DNA from: Chloroherpeton thalassium ATCC 35110
GTDB lineage: Bacteria > Bacteroidota > Chlorobiia > Chlorobiales > Chloroherpetonaceae
Assembly: GCF_000020525.1 (NCBI RefSeq)
Contig: NC_011026.1
Coordinates: forward strand, 2,152,001-2,216,000
Length of the DNA: 64,000 nt
Direction of reading: 5' to 3'
The notes below the pieces were generated by a model. That model saw only the letters and a program-made list of their open reading frames with translations, was not told the DNA's origin and ran no database searches. A program made the position numbers and the translations under genes. Positions 475 through 29,286 of this stretch are shown piece after piece (the first letter of the stretch is position 1; each line of letters begins with the position of its first letter).

Positions 475-3294
475 TTAACTAATATCAGCATTTAGATTTT
501 GCGCCGATCGCATATCATGGGCTTCCATTTTCAGCGGCGGGCATAAAAAAACATGCGCGTCTTCTTCAAAAGCCACAGCCGCATTTTTTAGAATGGAAAT
601 AGGCCGAATTTCTTGAACTTGAACGCCGTTTTCTTGAAGCGCCGCTTTTCCTGAGAGCAGCACCACTGTGTCTTTCACCTGCTGCAGCCGGCCTGTTGGC
701 GGAGCTGTGACTTTTCCGCCCAGCAGCCAACGCTTCAGGCGAACTTGTCCCCAAAAGCGATACGGCTCTTGCGGACGCAAAATGCTCTCGGCGGCGTGCA
801 TTCCTGCCAAATGCCAAAGTTTTTCGCCAATAACCGGAATTTCGTGGATGAGCTTCCGCAAATCCTGTGCAGCAATTTTCAGAATTTGAACCGTGGTTTC
901 GGCTTGCGCAGTGGCGACATGTGTGCCGGCGGTCAAAAATGCCAGCTCGCCGAGCGTGCTGCCGGGACCGAGAATGTCCGACAAGTCTTTTCCGTAAATC
1001 ACGCGCACCGTTCCGCGAACAACGATAATTAGATGATCGCCGGTCTCGCCTTTTGCAATCAGCTGCGTTCCTTGCGTAATCATTTCTTCTTTGGCGGCTT
1101 CCCAAATTTTCTTGAAAGCGCTTTCGTCAATTCCATTCAGCCATGAAATTTGTTTTAAAACCTCGCGCGAATCGGGCAGTTCGATCGATGGCGGGGTGTT
1201 GAAAATGCGTTTCATCCGGCGCTCGACCGCCGCAACCAGCCGCTCTTTTTCAATTTCATTCAACATGCCGCCTTCATACATTTTCTTGATCGAATTTCGC
1301 TCATGATTCAAAATAAGCCGCGCGGCAGTTTTGGTCTCAATGGCCATGGTGATTTCAGGGAAAGTTTCCCGCAATTTTTTAATCGCGCCGAGCGCAATGC
1401 CGCGATTGTAATTCATCTCGACTTGCAAGTTCATCGCGACGGCGTCGTCATGAATGATGCTTTCAAGCGTTTCGCTGATCTCCTCGTGCGCGACCACATA
1501 GCCGCGAGCAATGTCGTAACCGAAGGCCAGCCGGTCGTAGAGTGTGCGGCGAACCATTTTTCCAATGACGGGAAATGATTGAAGTTTGGTTAAAATTGCT
1601 GGAAATTGCCATAAATGCTCAAGTTCTTTCCAGTCGTCCAAGCTGCCTTCGTCGTCGCGATCGAGCGCAATATTAACAGCTTCAGTGAGCCGGCGCACCG
1701 CGCCTTGCCCCAAAACGCCTTCTTCAAATTGCCGCCAATAGCTGCGTTTTTGTGCCTCCAAAATCCGACGCCGCGATTCGGTCAAAATATCCATTTCCTT
1801 CACTTCGCTGACTTCGCCTTTTTCTTTGGGTGTTTTGCGACGCGGCATGTACTCGCGCACGCGCTCCCAATCCGCGCCGGAAAGGAACTTGTTATCTTTG
1901 AGCAGCAAAAAAGTTTGCTCGGTGTCTTCGCGCAACACCTTGATGGCATTATCGAGCAGCAAGGCTTTGGCTGCGGTCACTTTTTGCATCCCAAGCATTT
2001 TAATTAAAGTGCCGGTGGTTGTGCCGTTGATGAGCAAGGTTAAAACCACGATGCCCGCCGTGTGAAACAAAATCTGCCCGCGAATTTCTTCAGGAATCAA
2101 AGCGTTTTGCGAAACCAACAGTCCAAGCGCCAGTCCAACCGCGCCGCGCAACCCGCCCCACCAAAGCACGATGGCTTCATTTTTCGGCAAACCGTAGCCC
2201 GAATGACGCATCATCGGATAAAGTGCGCCGATAACAATCGCGCGCGCCACATGAATGCCGAGGTAAAGCACGCCGAGCAAAAGCCAGTCATGGACTGAAC
2301 CGGCTTGGGCTTGCTCAGCAATCACGACGCCGACAAGAATAAAAATCAGCGTGTTGGCAAAGTAGGCCGTCATTTCCCAAAAATTGTGCAAAAATGCTTC
2401 AACTTCCGGGCTGATGCGCGTCCGACCGATGCCGGCGAGCAAGAGTCCGAGCGCCACAAGTGCCAGCACACCGGAAACATGCAAAAATGATTCGGACACG
2501 TAGAAGGTCAGGTAGGCCGCTGCAACTGTCAGCGTAATTTCCACAAGCGCATCGTTAAAAACGTGGCGGAGCCACCAAATGGTTAGGCCTGCAATAATCA
2601 GTCCTAAAATTGTGCCGCCAAACGCCACCCAAGAGAAGTTTGCCAGCACGCTCATAAAGCCGCTATCGCCACCAACAGCCGTCACTGCGGACAAAAAGAC
2701 CATGAAAACCACAATCGCCGTGCCGTCGTTCAACAGCGATTCGCCTTCAATCAGCGTGGCGAGTTTTTTGCTTGCGCCCAGTTCTTTTAGCAAGGCGACG
2801 ACGGCGACAGGATCGGTGGCGCTCAAAAGTGCGCCGAACATCAAGGCCACACTCCAATTCCAGTTGTAAGGGAAAAGCATCGAAATGCCGCCAAGAATGG
2901 CAGTGCTAAGCAAAAGTCCAGGAACGGCAAGCAAAATTACATTGGTAATCGATCGCTTAAAAACATGCACGTCCATTCCAAAAGCCGCTTCGAAAATGAG
3001 GGTAGGTAGAAAAACGAAAAGAATGAAATGTGGGTCAATCGTTGAGGCCATATTAATGGCTGTGCCAAACTGGCCAAGCACGCCTTCGCCAACAAGCAAG
3101 TGATTGCGCTCAGCTACGCCAAGCCCTAAACCGATGAGTAGCAGTGCAACCGTGTACGGCAGTTTGGTTTTTCTTAAAAAATATCGCGTTGCAGCGCCAA
3201 TCACCAACGAAACAATGAGAAATAGCAGCCCCAGTTGGCCGCTGCTTACGGCATGTTCTGCCGCCTGATGTGCAACTTCTGCGCCATGCTCCAT
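475..3294 (-). CDS. CPA1-family Na+/H+ antiporter with C-terminal cyclic-nucleotide-binding domain
   Basis: 939 residues. The first ~430 residues are a multi-spanning NhaP/SOS1-type exchanger with the CPA1 signatures ATDPVAVVALL and EGESLLNDGTA, whose Asp residues are expected in cation transport. A long cytoplasmic helical region follows. A cyclic-nucleotide-binding domain then spans about residues 725-830 (GDHLIIVVRGTVRVIYG, then GPGSTLGELAFL, the phosphate-binding-cassette region). About 110 more residues follow without recognised domain. The architecture resembles plant SOS1 and long bacterial NhaP proteins. The product should sit in the inner membrane and exchange Na+ (or K+) for H+. Gating by a cyclic nucleotide is inferred: the cassette has GELAFL but no obvious RxA(S/T) Arg-Ala pair (it reads AGTHVATAQ), so cNMP binding may be weak or lost. 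Confidence 0.9.
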   Translation of the reverse strand: MEHGAEVAHQAAEHAVSSGQLGLLFLIVSLVIGAATRYFLRKTKLPYTVALLLIGLGLGVAERNHLLVGEGVLGQFGTAINMASTIDPHFILFVFLPTLIFEAAFGMDVHVFKRSITNVILLAVPGLLLSTAILGGISMLFPYNWNWSVALMFGALLSATDPVAVVALLKELGASKKLATLIEGESLLNDGTAIVVFMVFLSAVTAVGGDSGFMSVLANFSWVAFGGTILGLIIAGLTIWWLRHVFNDALVEITLTVAAAYLTFYVSESFLHVSGVLALVALGLLLAGIGRTRISPEVEAFLHNFWEMTAYFANTLIFILVGVVIAEQAQAGSVHDWLLLGVLYLGIHVARAIVIGALYPMMRHSGYGLPKNEAIVLWWGGLRGAVGLALGLLVSQNALIPEEIRGQILFHTAGIVVLTLLINGTTTGTLIKMLGMQKVTAAKALLLDNAIKVLREDTEQTFLLLKDNKFLSGADWERVREYMPRRKTPKEKGEVSEVKEMDILTESRRRILEAQKRSYWRQFEEGVLGQGAVRRLTEAVNIALDRDDEGSLDDWKELEHLWQFPAILTKLQSFPVIGKMVRRTLYDRLAFGYDIARGYVVAHEEISETLESIIHDDAVAMNLQVEMNYNRGIALGAIKKLRETFPEITMAIETKTAARLILNHERNSIKKMYEGGMLNEIEKERLVAAVERRMKRIFNTPPSIELPDSREVLKQISWLNGIDESAFKKIWEAAKEEMITQGTQLIAKGETGDHLIIVVRGTVRVIYGKDLSDILGPGSTLGELAFLTAGTHVATAQAETTVQILKIAAQDLRKLIHEIPVIGEKLWHLAGMHAAESILRPQEPYRFWGQVRLKRWLLGGKVTAPPTGRLQQVKDTVVLLSGKAALQENGVQVQEIRPISILKNAAVAFEEDAHVFLCPPLKMEAHDMRSAQNLNADIS

Positions 3295-7141: not shown

Positions 7142-7227
7142 GCCGAAGTGGCGGAATTGGTAGACGCACAGGACTTAAAATCCTGTGTCCAGAATTGGAC
7201 GTGCGGGTTCGAGTCCCGCCTTCGGTA
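7142..7227 (+). tRNA. tRNA-Leu (anticodon TAA)
   Basis: 86 nt. Acceptor arm GCCGAAG (7142-7148) pairs with CTTCGGT, with a G-T pair at 1-72. The D-arm is GCGGAATTGGTAGACGC. The anticodon stem-loop is CAGGA-CTTAAAA-TCCTG with anticodon TAA. A class-II long variable arm (TCC..GGA) follows, then the T-arm GGGTTCGAGTCCC. The CCA end is not fully encoded (ACCC follows). Class-II structure and anticodon agree on leucine. Confidence 0.96.
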
Positions 7228-7405: not shown

Positions 7406-7422
7406 TCTGACAATGTGTCAGA
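7406..7422. promoter_or_regulatory. Inverted repeat, candidate enhancer site for the hrcA promoter
   Basis: Perfect 7-bp arms TCTGACA / TGTCAGA separated by ATG. It lies about 85-100 bp upstream of the -24 element at 7507, where activators of sigma-54 polymerase usually bind. A partial copy (CTGTCAG) overlaps the promoter at 7500-7506. Role is inferred. The rest of the 318-bp spacer 7228-7545 holds no convincing gene. Confidence 0.5.
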
Positions 7423-7506
7423 CAAGCGCCGAATAGGCAATGCGAACAGGGTGGTTTTATTTTTTAATTTCAGACAAAATTTCGCTATTCTAAGAAATTC
7501 TGTCAG

Positions 7507-7522
7507 TGGCACACTCTTTGCA
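7507..7522 (+). promoter_or_regulatory. Sigma-54 (-24/-12) promoter upstream of hrcA
   Basis: TGGCACACTCTTTGCA matches the sigma-54 consensus TGGCAcR-N4-TTGCA at every conserved position, with GG and GC separated by exactly 10 bp. The predicted start of transcription is about 12 nt after the GC (near 7533), only 13 nt before the hrcA start codon. No CIRCE inverted repeat (TTAGCACTC-N9-GAGTGCTAA) is visible here. Confidence 0.75.
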
Positions 7523-7545
7523 ATGAACTATGTGATTGTAAGTTA

Positions 7546-8619
7546 ATGATGTCATCTCGTGAGTTAACCGAGCGTGAAAAAGAGATTCTGGGGCTCATCA
7601 TCCAAAATTTCATTCTAACGGCCAGTCCTGTTGGATCTCGTTATTTGGCAAAGCATTCCGATTTGGGGCTCTCCGATGCGACCATCAGGAATGTAATGGC
7701 GGATTTGGAGGAAAGAGGCTTTATTGCACAGCCTCATACCTCAGCTGGAAGACTGCCAACCGATAAAGGCTATCGGTTCTATGTAGATACAATTATGATG
7801 GTTAGGTCGCTCTCGCAGCCAGAACGGCGTAAAATAGATCGGGATATTGAAAATATCGTTAAAACGGCAAAAGGTGAATCCAGCGAATTGCTAAGGGAAA
7901 CTTCCAGAATTTTGGGAAAGCTTTCTCAGCAGCTGGGTTTTGTTCTATCGCCAAAACTGAGCGCCGGCGTTTTTGAAAAGTTGGACATTGTTTCGCTTTC
8001 GTCCAACAAAATCATGGTGGTTCTGTCCATTCGCTCGGGTTTTGTCAAAACCATTATGCTTGAAGTCAAAAGCCTGGTGATGCAAGAGAAGATCGATGAG
8101 TTGGTCTCGAATCTCAATGAGCGGCTTTCCGGCTTAACATTGGAGCAAATCAAATATACGTTCAAAGAACGCGTAGCGGGTTTTGATGATGAAACCGGCT
8201 TGCTTCGCGTGTTCATTGATTCCGCTGAGCGCATGTTTACGGATGTGCCTGATATGGATCGGTTGCATATTTCGGGAACGGAAAACATTATCGGGCAGCC
8301 GGAGTTTGGGCAGCCGGAAAAAATTCGTGGCATCGTGGAAATGACGCAAAATGAAAACGTGATTGTGCATTTGGTTGAAGATGCGCATCAGGAAAATTAC
8401 TTAGCTTCGATCAAAGACGGCGTCAAAATTATCATCGGAAAGGAAAATCGCGATAGCAAGATAAACGATTGTAGCATTGTGACCGCGCAATACGAAGTTG
8501 GTGATGTGCTGGGTACAATCGGGGTGATAGGGCCAACACGAATGGATTATGCAAAAGTGATTCGCGTGATTGACTACATCGCCAAACGGCTTTCAGATAA
8601 ATTAACCACGCTTCATTAA
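7546..8619 (+). CDS. hrcA: Heat-inducible transcription repressor HrcA
   Basis: 357 residues, the usual HrcA length; tandem ATGs at 7546 and 7549 make the exact start ambiguous by one residue. The N-terminal winged helix (ELTEREKEILGLIIQNF, then GSRYLAKHSDLGLSDATIRNVMADLEERGFI) and the adjoining HTSAGRLPTDKGYRFYVD are family signatures. A GAF-like domain follows, and the C-terminal PTRMDYAKVIRVIDYIAKRLS closes the protein. HrcA represses chaperone operons by binding CIRCE and needs GroEL for activity. It is first in an hrcA-grpE-dnaJ operon. CIRCE is not seen upstream, so autoregulation is not evident and its targets may lie elsewhere (e.g. groESL). Confidence 0.97.
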   Translation: MMSSRELTEREKEILGLIIQNFILTASPVGSRYLAKHSDLGLSDATIRNVMADLEERGFIAQPHTSAGRLPTDKGYRFYVDTIMMVRSLSQPERRKIDRDIENIVKTAKGESSELLRETSRILGKLSQQLGFVLSPKLSAGVFEKLDIVSLSSNKIMVVLSIRSGFVKTIMLEVKSLVMQEKIDELVSNLNERLSGLTLEQIKYTFKERVAGFDDETGLLRVFIDSAERMFTDVPDMDRLHISGTENIIGQPEFGQPEKIRGIVEMTQNENVIVHLVEDAHQENYLASIKDGVKIIIGKENRDSKINDCSIVTAQYEVGDVLGTIGVIGPTRMDYAKVIRVIDYIAKRLSDKLTTLH

Positions 8620-8657: not shown

Positions 8658-9275
8658 ATGTCGGAAGAAGTTAAAAACAGCGTAGAAACAGAAGAGAATA
8701 AAGCATCTAAAGACAACGCAACGCAAGCTCCCAATCCAACAGAAAATCATAATACGGCACAGGAAACGGAAAAAGCTGAAAATTCCGAAAAAACTGAATC
8801 GGCCACGCAAGAGAATGAAAGTCTCGACAAGTTGAAAAAAGACGTGACAAATTACAGAGAGCAGCTGCTTCGCACGGTTGCTGATTTTGAAAATCTCAAG
8901 AAACAAAAAGAACGCGAAGTCGCCTCCGTACGCAAATTTGCGGACGAATCCTTAATTAAAGAATTGCTGCCAGTTTTGGATGATATTGAACGGGTTCTTG
9001 TTAATGCGAGTAAATTTTTGCAAGCGTCTCCAGAAGCGCAATCCTATGTGGATGGCGTGAAGCTGATTCAACAAAATATGATGAAAGTCTTTGAAGCTCG
9101 CGGTTTGAAACGCATTGAAGCTGTTGGAACACCTTTTGATGTTCATTTGCATGAGGCCTTATCGCAAATGGAAAAAGAAGGCGCTGAGCCGGATACGGTG
9201 ATTCAGGAATTTGCACCAGGCTACACACTGAACGATAAAGTCGTTAGGCATTCGAAAGTTATTGTTTCCAAGTAA
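8658..9275 (+). CDS. grpE: Nucleotide exchange factor GrpE
   Basis: 205 residues. A charged, low-complexity N-terminal ~50 residues (many Glu, Asn, Lys, Thr) leads into the long coiled coil (LRTVADFENLKKQKEREV) and the C-terminal beta domain ending ALSQMEKEGAEPDTVIQEFAPGYTLNDKVVRHSKVIVSK, the GrpE signature. It exchanges ADP for ATP on DnaK as a homodimer. It lies 38 bp after hrcA in the same operon; dnaK is not in the window. Confidence 0.97.
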   Translation: MSEEVKNSVETEENKASKDNATQAPNPTENHNTAQETEKAENSEKTESATQENESLDKLKKDVTNYREQLLRTVADFENLKKQKEREVASVRKFADESLIKELLPVLDDIERVLVNASKFLQASPEAQSYVDGVKLIQQNMMKVFEARGLKRIEAVGTPFDVHLHEALSQMEKEGAEPDTVIQEFAPGYTLNDKVVRHSKVIVSK

Positions 9276-9329: not shown

Positions 9330-10529
9330 ATGTCGACAAAAAGGGACTTTTATGAAGTGTTAGGCGTGAGCCGAAGTGCAAGTGCCGATGAATTGAAAAA
9401 AGCATATAGAAAACTCGCAATCAAATATCATCCCGACAAAAATCCGAACGACAAGGAAGCTGAAAATAAATTCAAAGAAATTAACGAGGCGTATGAAGTT
9501 TTAAGCAATGAAGAAAAACGCGCTCGTTACGACCGGTTTGGCCATGCGGGTGTGGGAACTTCTGCCGCCTCAGATGGCAGCAATCCGTATGCAGGTCGCG
9601 GTGACTTCAACGATATTTTTAGCGCGTTTAGCGACATGTTTGGTGGCTCTGCCGGATTTAGCGCGGGTGCGGATTCTCCATTTGGCGAGGCTTTTGGTGG
9701 AAGCAGACGCCGCCGTTCTCCTGGTATTCCTGGCTCAGATTTGAAGATTAAGTTGAAATTGACACTGGAGGAAATTGCCAATGGTGTTGAGAAAACCTTA
9801 AAGATCAAAAAACTGAAAACTTGCCAAACCTGTAACGGAACGGGTTCAAAAAATGGCAAGATGGAGCCTTGTACGCATTGCAATGGAACAGGGGAAGTTC
9901 GTCAAGTTTCAAGAACCATGTTTGGGCAGTTTGTCAATATCACAACATGCCCGCACTGCAATGGCGAAGGACAAGTGGTGAAAGATAAATGCCCGGATTG
10001 CCATGGCGAAGGCCGTGTGCAAGGAGACGCGACTGTTAAAGTCACGATTCCTGCGGGTGTGTCTGAAGGAAATTACATTCCGCTTCGTGGTCAAGGAAAC
10101 GCGGGGATCCGTGGTGGCGATGCGGGCGACTTGCTCGTCATTATCGAGGAAGCGCCGCATAAATATTTCGAGCGCCATGAGGATGATGTGCTCTATAAAC
10201 TAAAAGTCAGTTATCCTGACATGGTGTTAGGAACACGCGTTAGAATCCCAACGCTGGATGGCGAGGACGAGTTGGAGATTCCTGCAGGCACGCCAAGTGG
10301 CGAAATTATGAAGCTCTACGGAAAAGGCATTGGGCATTTGAACGGATACGGGCGAGGTGATTTGCTCGTTAAGGTGGATGTTTTTGTGCCAACGCATGTT
10401 TCGGCCAAAGAAAAAGAGCTTTTGCACGAACTTCATAAGCATGAAAATGTTTCTCCGAAAAACCTTCAGCACTCGGATGAAAAAGAAGAAAAAAGCTTCT
10501 TTGAACGGGCAAAAGAAATCTTCGGATAG
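9330..10529 (+). CDS. dnaJ: Chaperone protein DnaJ
   Basis: 399 residues. The N-terminal J domain carries YHPDKNPND with the HPD motif that stimulates DnaK ATPase. A Gly/Phe-rich linker ([22 protein letters not shown]) follows. The zinc domain has all four CxxCxGxG repeats: [24 protein letters not shown] and CPDCHGEG. The substrate-binding C-terminal domains end with a charged tail. A type I DnaJ, third gene of the hrcA operon, with a strong terminator after it. Confidence 0.98.
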
Positions 10530-10881: not shown

Positions 10882-11166
10882 ATGTGTTTAGCCATACCGG
10901 GAAAGGTGACGAAAGTCTTTGAGGAAAACGGCCTGAAAATGGGCAATGTGGACTTTAGCGGCACGCTCACGAAAGTGTGCCTTGAATATGTGCCGGAAAT
11001 CAGGGTCGGCGACTACACGGTCGTTCACGCCGGCTTTGCCATTTCCATCATCGATGAAGAGGAGGCAATGAAAAGCTTTGAAGCGTGGCAGCAAGTCATC
11101 GAGGCCAGCGAGCGCGAAGGATTGGACATTTACGGCAATCCGCTCCCGAAAAAAGAGGCCGAATGA
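10882..11166 (+). CDS. hypC: Hydrogenase maturation chaperone HypC
   Basis: 94 residues beginning MCLAIPGKV, the HypC/HupF signature with the essential Cys2. The OB-fold body ([31 protein letters not shown]) is typical. HypC carries the Fe(CN)2CO precursor with HypD and delivers it to the large subunit of [NiFe]-hydrogenase. The TGA stop overlaps the hypD ATG (ATGA at 11163-11166), implying translational coupling. No hydrogenase structural genes, hypA, hypB or hypF are in the window. Confidence 0.96.
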
Positions 11167-12260
11167 AATATTTGGATGAATTTCGCGATCCGAAAGTCGC
11201 GCGGCGCATTTTGTCCGAAATCCGCTCGCTCGTGACGCGCCCTTGGGTGATTATGGAAATTTGCGGCGGACAAACGCATTCCATCATCAAAAACGGCATC
11301 GACCAGCTTTTGCCCAAAGAGGTGGAACTGGTGCACGGGCCGGGCTGTCCGGTTTGCGTCACGCCGCTGGAGCTTATCGATCGGGCGCTTGCCATCGCCG
11401 CCCGCCCAAATGTAATTTTCACAAGCTTCGGCGACATGCTTCGCGTGCCCGGCAGCCACAAGGATTTGTTCATGGCGCGAAGCGAAGGCGCAGACGTGCG
11501 AACCGTCTATTCGCCGCTCGAAGCCCTGAAGCTCGCCCGCGAACATCCCGAAAAGGAAGTCGTCTTTTTCGCCGTCGGCTTCGAGACCACTGCGCCGGGC
11601 AATGCGATGGCGGTTTTTCAAGCCAAAAAAGAAGGGCTGAAAAATTTCAGCCTGCTTGTGAGCCATGTGCTTGTGCCGCCCGCGATGGAGGCGCTGCTTG
11701 GCTCGCCGCAAAATCGGGTGCAGGCCTATTTGGCCGCCGGCCATGTGTGCACCGTGATGGGCTGGGAGGAATACGAGCCGATAGCCGAAAAATTTCATGT
11801 CCCGATTGTCCCGACCGGATTCGAGCCGGTGGATATTTTGGAAGGCATTTTGCAAGTGCTCAAACAGCTTGAATCGGGCGAGGCAAAAGTAGAAAATCAA
11901 TATTTGCGAGCCGTGAAGCGCGAAGGCAATCCAACCGCCCGAAAGATTCTCAGCGAAGTTTTTGAAATCACGGATAGAAAATGGCGCGGCATCGGCGAAA
12001 TTCCGAAAAGTGGCTATCGCCTGCGCGAAGCTTACGCCGCACACGACGCCGAGAAAAAATTCGCGGTCGGCGATTTAGAGACGGAAGAATCCGAACTTTG
12101 CAAAAGCGGCATCATTTTGCAAGGCTTATTGAAGCCGAACCAATGTCCCGCTTTCGGCGCAGAATGCACGCCCCAAACGCCGCTCGGCGCCACAATGGTT
12201 TCCAGCGAAGGTGCGTGCGCGGCGTATTATAAATATCAACGCCTAACGGAAAAAGATTAA
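11163..12260 (+). CDS. hypD: Hydrogenase maturation protein HypD
   Basis: 365 residues from the ATG at 11163, which overlaps the hypC stop; an upstream in-frame start would run through hypC and is rejected. Signatures are [19 protein letters not shown], a central [10 protein letters not shown] and the C-terminal [4Fe-4S] region [16 protein letters not shown] followed by SEGACAAYY. HypD is the iron-sulfur scaffold on which the Fe(CN)2CO group is built with HypC and HypE. Its usual partner hypE lies 12 kb downstream on the same strand, beyond the anf island. Confidence 0.97.
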
Positions 12261-14041: not shown

Positions 14042-14057
14042 TGGCACGGCTTTTGAA
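14042..14057 (+). promoter_or_regulatory. Sigma-54 promoter of the anf operon
   Basis: TGGCACGGCTTTTGAA matches TGGCACG-N4-TTGC except that the -12 dinucleotide is GA instead of GC. GG-N10-G spacing is exact. The expected transcript start is near 14068, giving a leader of about 78 nt before anfH. Activation by the downstream NifA/AnfA-like protein is inferred. Confidence 0.7.
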
Positions 14058-21841: not shown

Positions 21842-23431
21842 ATGCAAACACGTTTTTGTATCGGCCAAAGTTGTCACCACACTTACGTGCAAATGGATAC
21901 CATCTGTCGGGCGGAGATGATCGCCTCGCTATTTCGGATTAGCAAAGTGGTGATTGAAACGGAGAGTTTACCCGAAACGCTTTCGATCCTATTGAAAATA
22001 ATGAAAGAGGATATGGGCGTGGTGAAAGGAATTGTCTGTCTGTTCAATAGCAGAACGGGAAAAATATTTATTCACGACAGCATTGGACTCACAAAAGAGG
22101 AAGAAACACGAGGCGTTTATTCGATTGGAGAAGGCATTATCGGAAAAGTTGTGGAGACCGGACAAAAAATTGTGGTTCCGCGCATCAGTCAAGAGCCTAA
22201 TTTTTTGAATAGAACGAAAAGTTTATCGAATCAAAAAGATGCTGAGTTGTCCTTTGTCTGCATTCCGATTTTGCACGGGAAAAAAGTGCTGGGCGCAATC
22301 AGCGTGGTGCGTGTGTGCGGCACGCCAGACGCGCTCAACTACGACGTAGAATTGCTTGGCATTATTGCAGCGATGATCGCCCAAGCCGTTGAACTTTATT
22401 TGCTTGAAAATGAAGACAAAGGGTTGCTGCGTATAGAGAACGAGCGCCTTCGCGACGCACTCAAAGAGCGCTTTCATCCGTCGAACATCATCGGAAATTC
22501 AAAGCCGATGCTGGAAGTGTATGCGCTGATTAATAAAATCGCCAAAACCAAATCGACCGTGCTCATTTTGGGTGAAAGCGGCGTGGGGAAAGAACGCGTC
22601 GCCAGCGCAATTCATTACAACAGCCCCGATGCAAATAAGCCTTTTATCAAGTTTAACTGTGCGGCTTTGCCTGAAAGTGTTATAGAAAGCGAACTGTTTG
22701 GCCACGAAAAAGGCGCTTACACAGGCGCAGACAAGATCAGAAAAGGTCGGTTCGAAGAGGCCGACGGCGGCACGATTTTTTTGGATGAAGTCGGAGAATT
22801 GTCTTTGCCGATGCAAGCCAAGCTGCTGCGTGTTTTGCAAGAAAGAATTTTTGAACGCGTTGGCGGAAACAAGCCCATTAAGGTCAATATTCGAATAATT
22901 GCCGCCACAAATCGCGATTTGGCCAAAATGGCAAAGGATGGTCAATTTAGGCAAGACCTCTATTATCGGCTGAATGTGTTTCCGATTGTGATTCCGCCCT
23001 TGCGCGAAAGAAGCAGTGATATTCTTACGCTGGCCGAATATTTTGTCTCTCATTTTGTGAAGAAATTCAACAAAGAAATTAAGAGTATTTCTGTTCCGGT
23101 TCAGGAAATGCTGCTGGCGTACTCATGGCCGGGAAATGTGCGCGAACTTGAAAACGTGATTGAGCGAGCCGTGATTCTTACTGAAGATAATATTATACAT
23201 AGTTGTAATTTGCCGTTGTCGCTTCAAGCGCCCGTTTTGGCAACCGCTTCTTTCAAGAAAGGGCTGTTGGCCAAGTTGGATTCAATCGAATACGACATGA
23301 TTGTGGAAGCGCTGCTAAGTTGCAAAGGGAATATTTCGAAAGCCGCGCAAAAATTAGGCATGACACGAAGGGCGCTAAGCTTGAGAATGCAAAAATTTGG
23401 CATCAACTATAAAAAGTATCGGTTGAAGTAA
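21842..23431 (+). CDS. NifA/AnfA-type sigma-54-dependent activator
   Basis: 529 residues. The N-terminal GAF domain covers about residues 28-190. The AAA+ core has Walker A GESGVGKE (244-251), the sigma-54 contact loop GAYTGA (291-296, Tyr in place of the usual Phe) and Walker B IFLDEVGEL. A Fis-type helix-turn-helix (GNISKAAQKLGMTRRALSLRMQKFG) ends the protein. Three cysteines precede the GAF domain (Cys6, Cys11, Cys22), reminiscent of the Cys-rich N-termini of AnfA/VnfA, in which an Fe-S cluster has been reported for VnfA. The rhizobial Cys interdomain linker is absent. A GGAGAG ribosome site precedes the ATG. Probable activator of the anfH promoter; nifA versus anfA cannot be settled. Confidence 0.9.
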   Translation: MQTRFCIGQSCHHTYVQMDTICRAEMIASLFRISKVVIETESLPETLSILLKIMKEDMGVVKGIVCLFNSRTGKIFIHDSIGLTKEEETRGVYSIGEGIIGKVVETGQKIVVPRISQEPNFLNRTKSLSNQKDAELSFVCIPILHGKKVLGAISVVRVCGTPDALNYDVELLGIIAAMIAQAVELYLLENEDKGLLRIENERLRDALKERFHPSNIIGNSKPMLEVYALINKIAKTKSTVLILGESGVGKERVASAIHYNSPDANKPFIKFNCAALPESVIESELFGHEKGAYTGADKIRKGRFEEADGGTIFLDEVGELSLPMQAKLLRVLQERIFERVGGNKPIKVNIRIIAATNRDLAKMAKDGQFRQDLYYRLNVFPIVIPPLRERSSDILTLAEYFVSHFVKKFNKEIKSISVPVQEMLLAYSWPGNVRELENVIERAVILTEDNIIHSCNLPLSLQAPVLATASFKKGLLAKLDSIEYDMIVEALLSCKGNISKAAQKLGMTRRALSLRMQKFGINYKKYRLK

Positions 23432-24448: not shown

Positions 24449-24704
24449 AAAGTTGTTTTTTGAGGAAGCGCCGAGAAATCGCCAGAGCGTGCAAAAAATG
24501 ACAGGCCGTGTGATTGGCGCACACACTCTCTCTGGGCATCTTGCTTGAATGGCGCTCAGAATATCGCTAACTTTCGCTTTTTTAGCGCGGTCAGCTTGGA
24601 AAAAGCGCAGGTTCAGCCAGGCGAATTTTTTCCATTAGAGCGCGGATCGTATGCTTTTTCCAAGGATTGCAATTTTAATTTGATTACAAAACAAATTGGG
24701 CTTC

Positions 24705-25760
24705 ATGACTACAAACATCCCGGAATCATTTTCCTGTCCCATGCCGATTATCAATCACCAAACCGTTCAGATGGCGCATGGCGCAGGCGGAAAGCTTTCG
24801 GCTGAATTGATAGAAAAATTCATTTTGCCGCGCTTTGCTAATGAGGCGCTAAACCGCTTAGAAGATCAGGCAACGCTGGCTTTGCCCGCCGGCAAAGTGG
24901 CTTTTTCAACCGACACGTTTGTGGTGTCGCCGATTTTTTTTCCAGGTGGCGACATTGGCGATTTGGCTATTAATGGCACCGTCAATGATCTGGCCATGTC
25001 GGGCGCAACGCCGCTTTATCTGAGTGTCGGATTTGTTTTGGAAGAAGGCTTTTCGTTGGAAGCGTTTCATCGTGTGCTGATTTCAATGGAAAATGCGGCA
25101 AAAAATGCAGGCGTGCGCGTGGTCACTGGCGATACAAAAGTGGTTGGAAAAAATAGTTGTGATAAAATTTTTATCAACACTTCCGGCATCGGCGTGATTG
25201 CCGCCGGCGTTTCGATTTCGTGCAAAAATTTAGTTCCGGGTGATAAAATTCTGATTTCGGGCTCGCTTGCCGAACATGGCATGGCAGTGATGACAAAACG
25301 CGAAGGCCTTTCGTTTCAATCCGAAATTTTAAGCGACACAGCGCCGCTTTGCAAAATGGTGGAAAAAATGCTGGCCGCTACGCCCGAGATTCATGCCATG
25401 CGCGATCCAACTCGTGGCGGTTTGGCAACCACGCTCAATGAATTTGCAAAATCTTCCCAAGTTGGCATTAAAATTTACGAGGAGAAAGTGCCCGTTCGAG
25501 ACGATGTGCGCGGCGCGTGCGAAATGCTCGGTATCGATCCGCTTTATGTGGCAAACGAGGGAAAGTTGGTTGCTGCCGTTCCCGCCGAAAAAGCGGATGC
25601 GGTTTTGGCGGCTATGCGTGCGGACAAATTTGGGGAAGCTGCTTGCATTGTTGGCGAAGTGACAAGCTCGCATACTGGCATGGTGGTTATGCAAACAAGG
25701 CTTGGTGCAAACCGGATTGTGGATATGCCGTTAGGCGAGCAGCTTCCGAGAATTTGTTGA
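24705..25760 (+). CDS. hypE: Hydrogenase maturation protein HypE
   Basis: 351 residues from the ATG at 24705; the ATG at 24741 (MPIINHQTVQMAHGAGGKLS) gives a 339-residue protein of more usual HypE length and may be the true start. The AIR-synthase-like body has AHGAGGK, VGDIGDLAINGTVNDLAMSGA-type blocks (GDIGDLAINGTVNDLAM) and DPTRGGLATTLNE. The protein ends PRIC, the family's C-terminal cysteine that is carbamoylated and dehydrated to a thiocyanate before cyanide transfer to iron. hypC and hypD are 12 kb upstream. The 256-bp spacer before it holds nothing clear. Confidence 0.95.
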   Translation: MTTNIPESFSCPMPIINHQTVQMAHGAGGKLSAELIEKFILPRFANEALNRLEDQATLALPAGKVAFSTDTFVVSPIFFPGGDIGDLAINGTVNDLAMSGATPLYLSVGFVLEEGFSLEAFHRVLISMENAAKNAGVRVVTGDTKVVGKNSCDKIFINTSGIGVIAAGVSISCKNLVPGDKILISGSLAEHGMAVMTKREGLSFQSEILSDTAPLCKMVEKMLAATPEIHAMRDPTRGGLATTLNEFAKSSQVGIKIYEEKVPVRDDVRGACEMLGIDPLYVANEGKLVAAVPAEKADAVLAAMRADKFGEAACIVGEVTSSHTGMVVMQTRLGANRIVDMPLGEQLPRIC

Positions 25761-28704: not shown

Positions 28705-29286
28705 ATGTTAGAGGAAAAGCCTCGGGACTTTACGGCGTTAATAAAGGTGAAAATCTCAAATCTTTCCCTTGGTGAGCATCATTTTGAATTTAGATGCAAA
28801 GCTGGAGAATTTGCAGATGCCTTGTTAACTGAAGAAATTTTTCCAGGTTTCATTCACGTTTTTTTGCGTCTTGAAAAAAATGCCTCTGAGATTTTGGCAG
28901 AACTAAAAGTTCAAGCAGTGGCATATTTCGAATGTGATCGCTGTCTTGCGCCGATAGAAAAAAATCTTGAAGGGTCGTATTCGCTTTGCTTTTTGGTGGG
29001 TGAACCCAGAGAAAACGGTGTGGCGGAAGATGATGGGATTGCCATGATCGACAAAAACACGATTGAAATTGATTTTACTGAAGACGTCAGAGAAACCTTG
29101 CTTCTTGCGATTCCAATGAAAAACATCTGCGAAGATGAAGCGGCCTGCGAACAACGCATGATGCAAAATAACAGTGTTGCTGCAGCGGCACCTGATGCTT
29201 CACAGGAAAACGCATCGCAAGAAGATTCAGATTGGAAAAAAGCGCTAAAACAATTAGAAAAGAAAATAAACTCAAATCATAATTAA
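28705..29286 (+). CDS. YceD/DUF177-family protein
   Basis: 193 residues. The core YFECDRCLAPIEKNLEGSYSLCFL carries the family CxRCL motif (cited in part), followed by an acidic C-terminal third (EDEAACEQRM, SQEDSDWKK). The family is almost always encoded next to rpmF and is linked to 23S rRNA maturation and accumulation. Here rpmF starts 2 bp after its stop. The 2-Cys motif is intact. Confidence 0.93.
   Translation: MLEEKPRDFTALIKVKISNLSLGEHHFEFRCKAGEFADALLTEEIFPGFIHVFLRLEKNASEILAELKVQAVAYFECDRCLAPIEKNLEGSYSLCFLVGEPRENGVAEDDGIAMIDKNTIEIDFTEDVRETLLLAIPMKNICEDEAACEQRMMQNNSVAAAAPDASQENASQEDSDWKKALKQLEKKINSNHN

Follow-up and report, generated by a model that had tools for sequence, protein, structure and literature searches.

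A conserved sigma-54-type promoter and an enhancer-like half-site array upstream of hrcA-grpE-dnaJ in Chloroherpeton thalassium

Sigma-54 is best known in connection with nitrogen, flagella and envelope stress. The initial annotation of the locus studied here called chaperone control by this factor unusual, which is only partly right, since a sigma-54 promoter has been described upstream of hrcA-grpE in Chlamydia trachomatis (PMC7482065, PMC8762339) and further chaperone targets have been predicted in Bacteroidota and Planctomycetota (PMC12316311). In C. trachomatis, hrcA-grpE is preceded by tandem sigma-66 and sigma-54 promoters, together with a CIRCE (PMC7482065, PMC8762339). In its chaperone passage, the comparative study behind these predictions lists a GroEL/GroES/GrpE/DnaJ/DnaK/IbpA cluster as a predicted sigma-54 target, and its passage on Chlorobiia deals with nitrogen fixation genes and not with chaperones (PMC12316311). 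The reference cited there as experimental proof (its ref. 80) carries the title of a Blattabacterium genome paper, and we have not relied on it.

The locus described here, in Chloroherpeton thalassium, resembles each of these systems in part. As in Chlamydia hrcA-grpE(-dnaK), an operon led by hrcA and containing grpE has a sigma-54-type promoter just upstream and a candidate activator of the AtoC/NtrC kind. Unlike in Chlamydia, neither a CIRCE nor a housekeeping promoter is recognized at hrcA, and the operon ends with dnaJ, dnaK being located elsewhere (genome 1480291). The predictions in PMC12316311 are parallel in that they place sigma-54-type promoters before chaperone genes of a sister phylum, grpE and dnaJ among them. 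Like heat-shock operons controlled by HrcA and CIRCE, the organism encodes HrcA and has two perfect CIRCEs before groES; unlike them, its hrcA itself has none. Finally, as in enhancer-dependent sigma-54 systems of the NtrC type (nif, glnA, phage-shock), a -24/-12 element is accompanied by repeated half-sites about 30–110 bp upstream, but we could not assign the half-site, TTTTGTCRG, to a known activator and the target is a co-chaperone operon. Our literature search found no paper on a sigma-54 promoter of hrcA in Chloroherpeton, nor any on hrcA control in green sulfur bacteria. As far as we found, this promoter, although of a kind known from Chlamydia, is new for the phylum.

We analyzed a 64-kb stretch of the C. 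thalassium ATCC 35110 genome (2152001–2216000 of its single contig of 3,293,456 bases; hereafter the window), in which hrcA, encoding the heat-inducible transcriptional repressor (7546–8619, plus strand; PF01628; TIGR00331, 330.9 bits against a cut-off of 197.2), is followed on the same strand by grpE (8658–9275; PF01025) and dnaJ (9330–10529; TIGR02349, 422 bits against a cut-off of 377; PRK14281, 726 against 619). A tRNA gene (Rfam RF00005) is found at 7142–7227, just upstream of the hrcA regulatory region and on the same strand. A near-perfect -24/-12 element had been claimed before hrcA, and it is indeed there: TGGCACACTCTTTGCA (7507–7522, plus strand), which reads TGGCAC-ACTCT-TTGCA, is an exact match to the consensus and is separated by 23 nt from the hrcA ATG at 7546. 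The hallmark of sigma-54 promoters is the presence, within TGGCACN5TTGCW, of GG and GC dinucleotides 10 bp apart, and the element in the window has exactly this GG-N10-GC spacing. An extra half-site, TGTCAG, adjoins the -24 element (7501–7506, plus strand), and it is not conserved. The genome contains one rpoN gene, with an intact RpoN box (ARRTVAKYRE), and rpoN is likewise single in each of the 41 genomes that we compared, those being C. thalassium and 40 relatives.

How much weight can be placed on the match itself? TGGCACACTCTTTGCA is the sole exact match to TGGCACN5TTGCW in the window, where about 0.06 would be expected by chance, and the sole match to TGGCACN4TTTGCW in the whole 3.29-Mb genome, where chance alone would supply about 0.8; moreover, matches to a relaxed sigma-54 consensus are common (42 found, 45 expected). 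The match taken alone is thus weak evidence, and it is the position and the conservation of the element that carry weight. We collected hrcA and its upstream DNA from the same 41 genomes and read 30 upstream regions. This order-level sample falls into four families, f1 (that of C. thalassium), f2, f3 and f4, of which f4 presumably corresponds to the classical green sulfur bacteria (Chlorobiaceae), given that named Chlorobiaceae contigs carry f4-like HrcA starts. Every one of the 11 f1–f3 genomes has the pattern GGCAYN4TTTG upstream of hrcA, and none of the 19 f4 genomes does; dinucleotide shuffles put its chance rate at about 0.001 per 90 bp. It is situated within 70 bp of hrcA in 10 of the 11 f1–f3 genomes, and in the remaining one, G009, only at -249. 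That the same gene keeps the promoter in every f1–f3 genome, despite divergence of the surrounding DNA, refutes in practice the idea that we are looking at chance matches to consensus sequences, for all that the expected numbers given above might lend it; we regard this explanation as scarcely credible. An accidental negative control came from the pattern longer by one base, GGCAYN5TTTG, which matched no hrcA promoter and produced background matches only. Among hrcA relatives in 80 named contigs, no comparable promoter was found, the best matches being weak, with at least two mismatches and at unlinked positions.

When nine of these promoters are aligned, GG, CA and TTTG are invariant and the flanks vary; the aligned sites were picked by the GGCAYN4TTTG pattern, so that the genome count, and not the alignment, is the real test. 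The invariant positions are spaced GG-N10-G, as in sigma-54 promoters. The C of the -12 GC is kept only in C. thalassium and G003, the others displaying TTTGA or TTTGT. Most relatives have TTTGA, TTTGT or TTTGCC instead of TTTGCW, and C instead of T before the GG, departures that speak against the sigma-54 reading. An internal comparison is offered by an expected sigma-54 target within the window, nifH (14146), whose presumed promoter, TGGCACGGCTTTTGAA (14042–14057, plus strand), likewise has the TTTGA form of the -12 element, and the lineage therefore seems tolerant of this variant. The nif cluster, of which nifH is the first gene, is flanked by hypC, hypD-like and hypE-like hydrogenase maturation genes (10882–12260 and 24696–25760). 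In three genomes in which we looked at other GGCAYN4TTTGMW sites, few precede genes, and a half-site array accompanies the one at hrcA only.

Setting the start site 24 nt after the second G places the predicted +1 near 7533, which would leave a leader of 13 nt in C. thalassium and of 8–40 nt in seven relatives. The start codon lies downstream of the predicted +1 in C. thalassium and in seven of nine other genomes. In G015, it coincides with the predicted +1 and the leader would be of about zero length. For G001, a single start codon is plausible, 13 nt after the GG; the sole in-frame ATG/TTG precedes the predicted +1, which would make the leader negative. The G001 promoter could drive grpE-dnaJ and not full-length hrcA; else the assembly or the start could be wrong, or another promoter could serve hrcA.

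These two start codons, which are too near for a sigma-54 start, fit an explanation in which GGCAYANNNTTTG, the conserved block, acts as an operator or other non-promoter element and hrcA is transcribed by a housekeeping sigma factor from elsewhere, for example with the proximal CTGACA, which resembles TTGACA, as its -35. Several observations make us think this quite unlikely. A scan of the plus strand between 7100 and 7700 gave no sigma-70-type site, and by inspection no -10 is found 16–18 bp after CTGACA in the relatives. In Bacteroidota, the housekeeping promoter consensus is TTTG at -33 and TAnnTTTG at -7; the latter is absent from the block, and inspection shows that the required T is missing in all nine aligned promoters. 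Besides, what is invariant in the block coincides exactly with the GG-N10-G of sigma-54. A related arrangement, compatible with the reading that we prefer, is transcription of the operon from two promoters, a basal housekeeping one and the sigma-54 one. It has the tandem sigma-66/sigma-54 promoters before C. trachomatis hrcA as a precedent (PMC7482065, PMC8762339) and would account for the start codon position in G001, but no second promoter was recognized in the region, by a consensus scan that is a weak test in this phylum. We view such dual control as possible, if rather doubtful.

Upstream of the promoter, we found the perfect TCTGACA-ATG-TGTCAGA dyad that the initial annotation had reported, with no mismatch (TCTGACAATGTGTCAGA, 7406–7422). 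It is part of a distal element, TCTGACAATGTGTCAGACAAG (7406–7426), located 80–100 bp before the GG, in which two minus-strand half-sites (TTGTCTG and TTGTCAG), 12 bp apart, are centered at -97 and -85 from the GG with a plus-strand TGTCAGA between them. A proximal half-site, TTTTGTCTG (7471–7479, minus strand; CAGACAAAA on the plus strand), is centered 33 bp before the GG. The relatives lack the exact dyad but conserve the half-site array, in the form of tandem TTTTGTCRN sites and one inverted site. The minus-strand proximal site is centered at exactly -33 in four genomes from three genera (loci L009, which is that of the window, L011, L012 and L014), at -36 in L015 and at -23 in L016. The array has one inverted site about 33 bp before the GG, to which several genomes add a distal tandem pair 11–12 bp apart; pairs of the TTTTGTC type, 11 bp apart, are at -93/-82 in L012, -92/-81 in L015 and -70/-59 in L016. 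A clear array is absent from G003 (f3). In the 115 bp before the GG, the f1–f3 genomes contain 28 TTGTC/GACAA/TGTCAG/CTGACA words against 3.6 expected, a number reached by none of 2,000 shuffled sets, and over 220 bp TGTCA/TGACA occurs 22 times in f1–f3 (about 5.5 expected) and eight times in f4 (about 6.3 expected). It therefore seems that the perfect palindrome is a local variant of a half-site array, TTTTGTC(A/G/T)G. Of the proposal that the dyad is an enhancer, it is the cluster of TGTCA-type half-sites 30–110 bp upstream that holds across relatives, not the dyad as such.

A wider set of targets was not apparent. Searching the genome for the dyad at other -24/-12 sites, as had been suggested, returned no second copy, all other matches in the 3.29 Mb having two mismatches. 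One such relative, TCTGAGATTTTGGCAGA, is inside an ORF of the window (28885–28901; L005) and is probably there by chance. When 11 genomes were searched for GACA-N17-40-GGCAYN4TTTG, hrcA was the only recurrent upstream target seen (six genomes), the other repeated matches resembling conserved coding sequence. With no second dyad and no other gene recurrently preceded by promoter plus half-site, the arrangement looks specific to the hrcA operon.

As for CIRCE, the claim that none is present at hrcA was borne out. The best match to TTAGCACTC-N9-GAGTGCTAA near hrcA in the window has nine mismatches out of 18, and across the 30 genomes the best matches at hrcA have seven to nine, on which grounds we rejected a degenerate CIRCE. 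The only two CIRCEs of the genome, identical and perfect, are 75 bp apart before groES, at about 2848 and 2923 of locus L121 (genome 1909500–1917500), with groES at 3024. Autoregulation of the hrcA operon through CIRCE thus appears not to occur, and control by HrcA looks confined to groESL. Most of the dnaK upstream regions display no sigma-54 site. Weak GGAAC...TTGCT forms are seen in G005 and G013, and in G009, the one relative without a proximal hrcA promoter, TGGCACGACATTTGAA lies 163 bp before dnaK (L143) with three TGTCA/TGACA sites upstream, and is a possible sigma-54 promoter of that gene. The sigma-54-like strings of G009, at -249 of hrcA and -163 of dnaK, hint at a possible shift of the target within the chaperone system.

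If the half-sites bind an activator, which one might it be? The genome encodes five full-length sigma-54 activators: two that are NifA-like, one of them in the window, and three that we refer to as groups A, B and D. The NifA-type protein of the window (21842–23431, plus strand; GAF, AAA+ and HTH_8) probably serves nif rather than hrcA. Group A is a 406-residue protein with no receiver, and group D is a response regulator. Group B, an NtrC-type response regulator encoded outside the window (genome 859421–860911) between mutL and an alkyltransferase-like gene, is present in every f1–f3 genome with a proximal hrcA promoter, missing from G009, which lacks one, and missing from f4 except for a 46% paralogue in G039. 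Since only the presence of group B follows the promoter among the activators examined, it is the best candidate, although this co-occurrence is a correlation, supported in the main by a single clade split and a single loss. A possible autoregulation of group D, itself a sigma-54 activator, is suggested by TGGCATTTGTTTTGAT, which is found 14 bp before its gene (L227, genome about 2318543–2318557, minus strand).

That the promoter depends on sigma-54 while TTTTGTCRG is bound by some other protein, be it group A, group D or a non-AAA+ repressor or co-regulator, is an alternative that we consider plausible, though it is not the one we would expect. The f1 and f2 genomes encode groups A and D as well, and in the loci examined neither the surroundings of the group B gene nor those of groES and rpoN showed a tandem TTGTC site. 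Furthermore, the sigma-54 contact loop of group B reads GAFTDA in place of GAFTGA. A Desulfovibrio vulgaris study lists GAFTDA among the variants expected to stay active, with DVU2106 and its target operons as an example (PMC4641369); VfmH, which also has GAFTDA, was not detected together with sigma-54 in a pull-down experiment (PMC10714721). On the other side, group A is also found in an f4 genome (G022), which does not have the promoter, and G009, without a proximal promoter, retains groups A, D and E, so that neither A nor D follows the promoter as group B does.

Judged by its sequence, then, the sigma-54-type promoter before hrcA-grpE-dnaJ is real and conserved, and the half-site array that accompanies it is enhancer-like. 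The earlier interpretation, taken as a whole, is partly supported; its sigma-54 promoter reading has strong support from conservation across three families, and further support from a single intact rpoN and the absence of CIRCE. We think it probable that the 120 bp upstream of hrcA form a sigma-54 promoter region with an activator at the half-sites, group B being the best candidate, and with HrcA limited to groESL. RNA polymerase carrying RpoN would bind TGGCAC-N5-TTGCA and start near 7533, so that the hrcA-grpE-dnaJ message would carry a leader of about 13 nt. An activator, for which the response regulator at genome 859421–860911 is the candidate, would occupy the TTTTGTC(A/G/T)G half-sites (proximal at -33, distal at -80 to -100 from the GG), loop to the closed complex and open it. 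The HrcA made from the operon would repress groESL via the two CIRCEs, not its own operon. The signal, like any heat-shock role of the promoter, is putative.

If this is true, a core protein-folding operon of Chlorobi would be transcribed with sigma-54, as is the case in Chlamydia, and the level of HrcA would depend on an activator that uses ATP rather than on HrcA's own CIRCE loop. More tentatively, and with more doubt than expectation, one may picture a Chloroherpeton-type clade of Chlorobi in which GrpE, DnaJ and HrcA came under a two-component/sigma-54 switch dedicated to them, with TTTTGTCRG as a private enhancer code, and were uncoupled from HrcA feedback; with groESL still repressed by HrcA, the strength of the chaperonin response would be tuned by a non-heat phosphorelay signal. 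As a pair, the half-site code and the response regulator that co-occurs with the promoter can be tested directly, and the promoter, present in three families and absent from classical green sulfur bacteria, could help to date when a regulatory circuit was gained or lost.
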